Under the pieces are notes generated by a model that was given only the letters and a program-made list of their open reading frames with translations, was not told the origin of the DNA and ran no database searches. From IMG/VR virus record IMGVR_UViG_3300018062_000003, positions 1 through 20,811 of that record: 20,811 nt of DNA, one strand, 5' to 3'. The stretch comes from a virus. Made by a program: the position numbers and the translations under genes. Below are positions 14,134 through 14,711 of the stretch, in pieces; position 1 is the first letter of the stretch; each line of letters begins with the position of its first letter.

Positions 14134-14352
14134 CTACTGGCGCGTACGTGGAAAAAAATCGGTCTTAAGCAACTCTTCCTGTCGGCGATGGCGCCAAGTG
14201 TTCAGCACATCTCGCAGCTCGTTCGCATTGGCATAGCCTTCGCCGATCATGCGCGAGACGATGACAGCGCCGAATTCATGAACGAGAGCGCGGAACGGCG
14301 GCGTCATCGCGTCGATTGCCGCCATGACCTTAACCGAATCTGGATCGCTCAT
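14134..14352 (-). CDS. uncharacterised small protein before portal (72 aa)
   Basis: The ATG at 14352 overlaps the upstream stop by ATGA (14349-14352), so translation is coupled. The protein is mostly helical: AIDAMTPPFRALVHEFGAVIV, then NELRDVLNTWRHRRQEELL and a basic end. I recall similar small helical proteins in packaging regions of alphaproteobacterial phages but no assigned function. No membrane segment or metal-binding motif is visible. Confidence 0.7.
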   Translation of the reverse strand: MSDPDSVKVMAAIDAMTPPFRALVHEFGAVIVSRMIGEGYANANELRDVLNTWRHRRQEELLKTDFFPRTRQ

Positions 14353-14606
14353 TGCCGCTGGGCAGCAACGTCCGCGAAATACTCGTTGATCTCGTGCATG
14401 AGCGCGTCGATCTTGGACAGATCGGCTTCGCTGGGCTCGTCGCCCTCATCAAGGGCGGCGTCATAGACCAGCGTGTCAATGACGTGTTTGCCCCCAGCAT
14501 AGAAGAAGCGCTTGAAAGTCTTAACGAGATCGGGATGCGTTTCTGGCGGGATCAACTGTTCCAGGATAGCGGCCCACCCGGTCTTCATGATCTTGCTGGT
14601 CAGCAT
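14349..14606 (-). CDS. uncharacterised small protein whose 5' end is interrupted by a miniature element (85 aa)
   Basis: The current frame starts at an ATG at 14606 that lies inside the left copy of an 8-bp target duplication. Only a distant AAGG within the inserted element could act as ribosome site. If the element and one duplication copy (14608-14699) are removed in silico, the frame joins an upstream ATG at 14710 with an ideal GGGGGAG site six bases before it, giving an N-terminus MPREMLTSKIM. The protein is helical and acidic (FKRFFYAGGKHVIDTLVYDA, then DLSKIDALMHEINEYF). Function unknown. It is coupled by ATGA to the next gene. Expression is probably altered by the insertion. Confidence 0.72.
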   Translation of the reverse strand: MLTSKIMKTGWAAILEQLIPPETHPDLVKTFKRFFYAGGKHVIDTLVYDAALDEGDEPSEADLSKIDALMHEINEYFADVAAQRQ

Positions 14607-14607
14607 T
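14600..14607. repeat. left copy of 8-bp target-site duplication (TCAGCATT)
   Basis: TCAGCATT here is repeated exactly at 14692-14699, one on each side of the 84-bp inverted-repeat element and at symmetrical distance (one base) from its repeats. On the minus strand this copy contains the ATG now used as the start at 14606. Confidence 0.75.
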
Positions 14608-14608
14608 C

Positions 14609-14623
14609 GGGATTATAACCTTG
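14609..14623 (+). repeat. left terminal inverted repeat, 15 bp
   Basis: GGGATTATAACCTTG, the exact reverse complement of 14676-14690. Its minus-strand reading contains TATAAT, eight bases before the ATG at 14606. Confidence 0.85.
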
Positions 14624-14675
14624 CGCCATCCCCTTGCGGGGCACCGGCTTTTACCATTCCTAGCTGGTGCTTTGT

Positions 14676-14690
14676 CAAGGTTATAATCCC
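14676..14690 (-). repeat. right terminal inverted repeat, 15 bp
   Basis: CAAGGTTATAATCCC, the exact reverse complement of 14609-14623. On the minus strand it supplies the in-frame TAA at 14683-14681 that stops the original reading frame from 14710 after nine codons. Confidence 0.85.
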
Positions 14691-14691
14691 C

Positions 14692-14699
14692 TCAGCATT
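14692..14699. repeat. right copy of 8-bp target-site duplication (TCAGCATT)
   Basis: Identical to 14600-14607. It lies inside the original 5' end of the interrupted gene, at its fifth and sixth codons. Confidence 0.75.
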
Positions 14700-14711
14700 T
14701 CGCGCGGCATT

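Follow-up and report, generated by a model that had tools for sequence, protein, structure and literature searches.

An 84-bp derivative of an IS1595-family transposon, very probably a recent single insertion, at the start of a conserved gene in a phage packaging operon

The locus and its 84-bp insert

The window, by which we mean the whole stretch of DNA analysed (a virus record of 20,811 bases), carries a phage head and packaging operon on its minus strand, with genes for the terminase large subunit, the portal, the major head protein and a head closure protein. The contig is a metagenomic assembly. Two small open reading frames precede the portal gene (14134-14352 and 14349-14606), neither with a PHROG match; the product of the second, a conserved phage protein of 85 aa, was likewise without a match in Pfam and NCBIfam. 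Homologues of this protein were found in other IMG/VR viral contigs, at identities of 62% (L002/L087), 55% (L006), 53% (L003) and 50% (L085).

An inverted repeat of 15 bp lies at the 5' end of the 85-aa gene (Table 1), and its arms, GGGATTATAACCTTG and CAAGGTTATAATCCC at 14609-14623 and 14676-14690, are 100% complementary. The spacing to the flanking direct repeat is symmetric, with one extra base on each side of the inverted repeat, which delimits an element of 84 bp. Among 500 first-order Markov resamplings of the window, only 5 contained any perfect inverted repeat of 15 bp with a 20-200 nt loop, and an exact 8-bp repeat abutting both element ends contributes, by simple arithmetic, a further factor of about 4^-8. 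A chance origin is therefore negligible, given that an exact 8-bp repeat flanks a perfect inverted repeat.

Table 1. Coordinates of the insert and of the features around it (window positions).
Feature	Position	Strand	Remarks
Target-site duplication, copy 1 (8 bp)	14600..14607	.	TCAGCATT; coding strand AATGCTGA; exact repeat of 14692-14699
Target-site duplication, copy 2 (8 bp)	14692..14699	.	TCAGCATT; exact repeat of 14600-14607
Non-autonomous element of 84 bp, very probably an internal-deletion derivative of the IS1595 family	14608..14691	-	Right end first on the minus strand
Left (transposase-proximal) terminal inverted repeat (TIR), CGGGATTATAACCTTG	14608..14623	+	15/15 match to the other end
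Right-end transposon segment, 69 bp including TIR, GGGGATTATAACCTTG	14623..14691	-	BLAST to genomic right ends
TTGACA, perfect -35-like hexamer at the inner TIR edge	14671..14676	-	Directed into the element, towards the 85-aa gene
CCCC-GCAA-GGGG hairpin kept from the transposon right end, then ATGGCGC	14630..14641	-	Right-end comparison, folding
Ancestral start region, now a 9-codon leader ORF (MPREMLRGL, stop)	14681..14710	-	Strong GGGGGAG site; in-frame TAA inside the element
85-aa conserved phage protein gene	14349..14606	-	Flanked by the portal gene and a small conserved ORF; its first codon is ancestral codon 5

The insert is absent from L002/L087, L003, L006 and L085. In L006-type contigs the ATG of the homologue comes immediately after the end of a small ORF (...ILRTGLRFGFI...), and the window shows the same arrangement once the element is removed, with ...VLRTGLKLGFI... 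ending directly before the ATG; the site joined by removing the element and one repeat copy translates as MPREMLTSKIMKTGW. A formal empty site at the DNA level would be an uninterrupted ...GAAATGCTGACC... with a single AATGCTGA. The insert-free relatives are distant (50-62% aa identity) and offer no exact empty site at the DNA level.

Full-length relatives and the composition of the insert

On the minus strand, the first 24 bases of the element read GGGGATTATAACCTTGACAAAGCA. Scanning viral contigs with the 15-base repeat returned 49 stretches, many of them single-TIR matches attributable to chance 15-mers, and only those reading on as ACAAAGC beyond the repeat were kept. Past the repeat this subset reads ACAAAGCA, identical to the minus-strand end of the element, and identity over the terminal bases is 24/24 with the ends of L021 (both), L028, L036R, L044, L064 and L067 (both). 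These identical ends come from full IS1595-family transposons of Bradyrhizobium, other Hyphomicrobiales and phage contigs. A transposase is encoded in four viral contigs with the extended end (L021, L028, L031 and L036). That of L021 (315 aa) matches DDE_Tnp_IS1595 (PF12762, E 4e-33) and Zn_ribbon_IS1595 (PF12760, E 2e-10), and scores 196 bits against NCBIfam transpos_IS1595 (NF033547; cut-off 75), an assignment to IS1595 at the family level only; it has relatives in L028, L031, L036, L067, L100, L101 and L103. When genomes were scanned with 20 bases of this extended end, six records matched, four of which have elements with a transposase relative (Bradyrhizobium sp. Arg816, B. diversitatis and two Hyphomicrobiales MAGs). 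The same scan found the identical 24-bp end in a Xanthobacteraceae MAG, as well as a match in Foetidibacter, which was without a transposase relative and is probably due to chance.

Six complete relatives of 2.3-3.7 kb, with transposase and both ends, are each flanked by a perfect 8-bp target duplication: L021 (3125 bp, GATTTGAT), L036 (2271 bp, CTTTCCAG), L067 in B. diversitatis (3698 bp, GGGCGAAT), and L100, L101 and L103 (2348, 2324 and 2718 bp). Duplications of 8 bp are characteristic of the IS1595 family, all subgroups of which, except IS1016, have an N-terminal zinc finger in the transposase (PMC8101967). L031 (2909 bp) has both ends and no matching duplication; both of its ends start with C, as does the left TIR of the 84-bp element. 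No relative of the transposase was found in the window, so that the element lacks the transposase of its own which would mark an autonomous IS1595 member.

The body of the element was traced by a BLAST comparison of the 84-bp sequence in minus orientation with 392 genomes from a single family centred on a Hyphomicrobiales MAG. Matches were obtained in G070 (81% over element positions 5-69), G008 (78% over 1-69) and G336 (74% over 5-69), and all three end at position 69, the deletion junction. The matched segments in G070 and G336 are right ends, opposite the transposase start, and the G008 sequence suggests that its match is a right end too. Aligned right ends share the TIR, ACAAAGCA, a variable stretch, the CCCC-GCAA-GGGG hairpin and TGGCGC; beyond this shared part the full elements read GCCCGAA or similar, while the 84-bp element goes directly to the other TIR, AAGGTTATAATCCCG. 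The body reached z values of up to 12 against right ends and stayed at shuffle level (z -1.4 to 1.7) against left ends, of which the element retains only the TIR itself. Right-end homology that stops at position 69, coupled with the absence of homology to left ends, thus resolves the element into 69 bp of right end and 15 bp of left end. By these comparisons, the ends (24/24), the 8-bp target duplication and the 69-bp body (74-81%) establish descent from a Bradyrhizobium/Hyphomicrobiales-type IS1595 element. Judged against full relatives, the internal deletion would have removed at least about 2.2 kb. The closest full-length right end shares only about 81% identity with the element, and no direct parent was found in the genomes searched.

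The full elements show several further features. TTGACA stands at the inner edge of nearly every TIR of the relatives, directed into the element, and a TAG(A/T)-type -10-like sequence follows about 16 bp later in many full elements, though it is not clear in the 84-bp element; there, a promoter scan returned no sigma-70-type promoter above threshold despite the TTGACA, and no convincing -10. Right-end hairpins of L031, L036, L044, L067, L068, L072 and L082 vary in stem sequence with pairing kept (CCCC-GCAA-GGGG, CCCC-GAAA-GGGG, GTCCC-TATT-GGGAC, GGGAC...GTCCC), and are followed by (T)GGCGCGCCCG or a near variant; their folding beats most shuffles for several elements, not all. Passenger ORFs of about 200 aa (L021 6803-7387, L031 3459-4064) are without a Pfam or NCBIfam match. 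At L021 3978-4424 the IS1595 insertion has given an upstream ORF a new end translated from the TIR (...MGIITLTKQFP); since GIITLTK is an open frame of the TIR, an insertion in this frame extends a protein instead of stopping it at once.

Searches for further copies of the deleted form were negative. An exact paired-TIR scan with short spacer found no second mini-element in IMG/VR viral or GTDB genome contigs, paired TIRs revealed none in the 392 family genomes, and no full-length BLAST match to the 84 bp occurred in these and 385 class genomes (about 770 alphaproteobacterial genomes in all). The 100-bp region, compared by blastn with phage and plasmid records, yielded chance pieces only, as did a scan with the junction of right end and left TIR, TGGCGCAAGGTTATAA, whose 11 viral matches never read on into the ATCCC end of the TIR. 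The element is accordingly MITE-like but known from one copy, and the mobility of its deleted form is read from its target duplication alone.

These results bear on much of what a sequence-only reading of this DNA had proposed. Non-autonomous transposition is borne out by full relatives with the same ends, an 8-bp duplication and an IS1595 transposase, the full-length element with the same 15-bp ends that it had called for having been found. The search for the 84 bp in alphaproteobacterial genomes and phages, which it had proposed, gave right-end matches only; the label of a miniature element suits a short, TIR-bounded, IS-derived sequence and fails as regards a multi-copy family. Related phages all carrying the same 84 bp, which it had named as contrary evidence, were not seen, and the empty site that it had asked for is found in part, as insert-free relatives of the 85-aa gene.

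Translation of the 85-aa gene and alternative readings

The ancestral ATG of the gene, at 14710 on the minus strand, has GGGGGAG six bases upstream and follows the preceding TGA by one base. In the same ancestral frame the ATG at 14606 forms codon 5 (ATG CCG CGC GAA ATG CTG ...; MPRE-MLTSK...), and was kept rather than recreated because it lies inside the duplicated 8 bp. As far as the sequence-only reading described the site (a perfect inverted repeat, a symmetric exact duplication, the ATG at 14710 with its ribosome site and adjacent stop, a TAA inside the element after nine codons, a phage late operon), it was exact. Its further proposal, that the duplication supplied a new ATG and so repaired the start codon, is not supported: the downstream ATG pre-existed, any 8-bp duplication keeps the target sequence on both sides, and the anti-Shine-Dalgarno match is much weaker at the present ATG than at the ancestral one (-3.3 vs -8.6 kcal/mol), with all bases from about -17 to -3 of the former predicted to pair within the TIR stem. 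On sequence grounds, the strong site now serves the 9-codon leader rather than the 85-aa gene. Expression of the gene is probably reduced or dependent on reinitiation, since the site of its present ATG is weak and folded into the stem; the leader's TAA falls in the 5' arm of that stem, a position that would allow reinitiation. Shine-Dalgarno matches of the other genes in the window are also weak (most -0.7 to -6.6), so the gene may still be expressed from the present ATG.

Our favoured reading (probability about 0.95) is that the 84 bp arrived here once and recently, as an IS1595-family transposon with an internal deletion. The mini-element would have arisen by an abortive or internal deletion in a full IS1595 element. 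A host-encoded IS1595 transposase, acting in trans, may have moved it into the phage or prophage by a cut within codons 4-7 of the 85-aa gene, staggered by 8 bases. The conserved protein core (from ...LTS on) would then stay open from ancestral codon 5, with translation from there probably weak and perhaps requiring ribosomes that read the leader, open the stem and reinitiate. The perfection of both TIR and duplication is consistent with a recent event.

That the hairpin might instead be the phage's own, a conserved RNA or regulatory element controlling translation of the 85-aa gene with no insertion involved, is suggested by its strong fold (-41.5 kcal/mol, z -4.7) and its position exactly in the 5' region of the gene. 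However, the inverted repeats account for the fold; an exact 8-bp duplication flanks the element, and an Rfam search gave no family at gathering score, only sub-threshold chance matches to CRISPR repeats (E 0.99 and 6.5). We rejected this explanation, to which we attach very little probability, because the phage relatives are without the sequence while transposon ends in bacterial genomes have it.

Two further readings accept the insertion and differ in its consequences. A simple knock-down or inactivation of the 85-aa gene, in a decaying prophage or a tolerated minority variant, is possible, though less likely than not: the ribosome site at the present ATG is weak and occluded, and four codons are lost. 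Against this, reading frames elsewhere in the packaging operon are open (terminase, portal, major head protein), weak Shine-Dalgarno matches recur at other genes of the window, and the N-terminal residues ahead of the conserved ...TS(R/K)(V/I)... core differ from one relative to another, the window losing only four (MPRE). Domestication of the insert as a translational switch, in which translation of the leader would open the TIR stem and the 85-aa gene be reinitiated at its old codon 5, seems to us improbable, both as a general proposal and in this detailed form. The strong Shine-Dalgarno match (-8.6 kcal/mol) of the leader, and its stop in the 5' arm of the very stem in which the bases ahead of the present ATG are sequestered, are what such a switch would need, but there is no sign of conservation, only one copy is known, the perfect duplication suggests a recent event, and similar geometry is expected by chance from many insertions at the same spot.

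Comparison with known mobile elements

While the kind of event described here is fairly ordinary, it is cleanly documented, as a fully traceable IS1595-derived mini-element in a phage structural operon for which source family, deletion junction and insert-free relatives have been identified. The case points to the acquisition of transposon relics by phages of Hyphomicrobiales-type hosts, and the analysis also describes an IS1595 group marked by a strongly conserved 24-bp end and, at the end away from the transposase, a hairpin.

The IS1595 family consists of insertion sequences with a Zn-ribbon and an ISXO2-like DDE transposase. The element resembles its full members in an identical terminal 24 bp, an 8-bp duplication and GG-type ends; it differs from them in having no transposase, in its length (84 bp vs 2.3-3.7 kb) and in that its two ends differ in one terminal base (C for G). 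Full IS1595 elements in phage contigs (L021, L031 and L036) have the same ends and are also IMG/VR viral records, but carry a transposase and further ORFs, and are inserted at other sites. With prokaryotic MITEs the element shares its shortness, its non-coding, TIR-bounded form, a target duplication, the lack of a transposase and an origin from an insertion sequence by internal deletion; unlike them, it is a single copy in a phage contig, with no family of multiple near-identical copies in the contigs, records and genomes searched.
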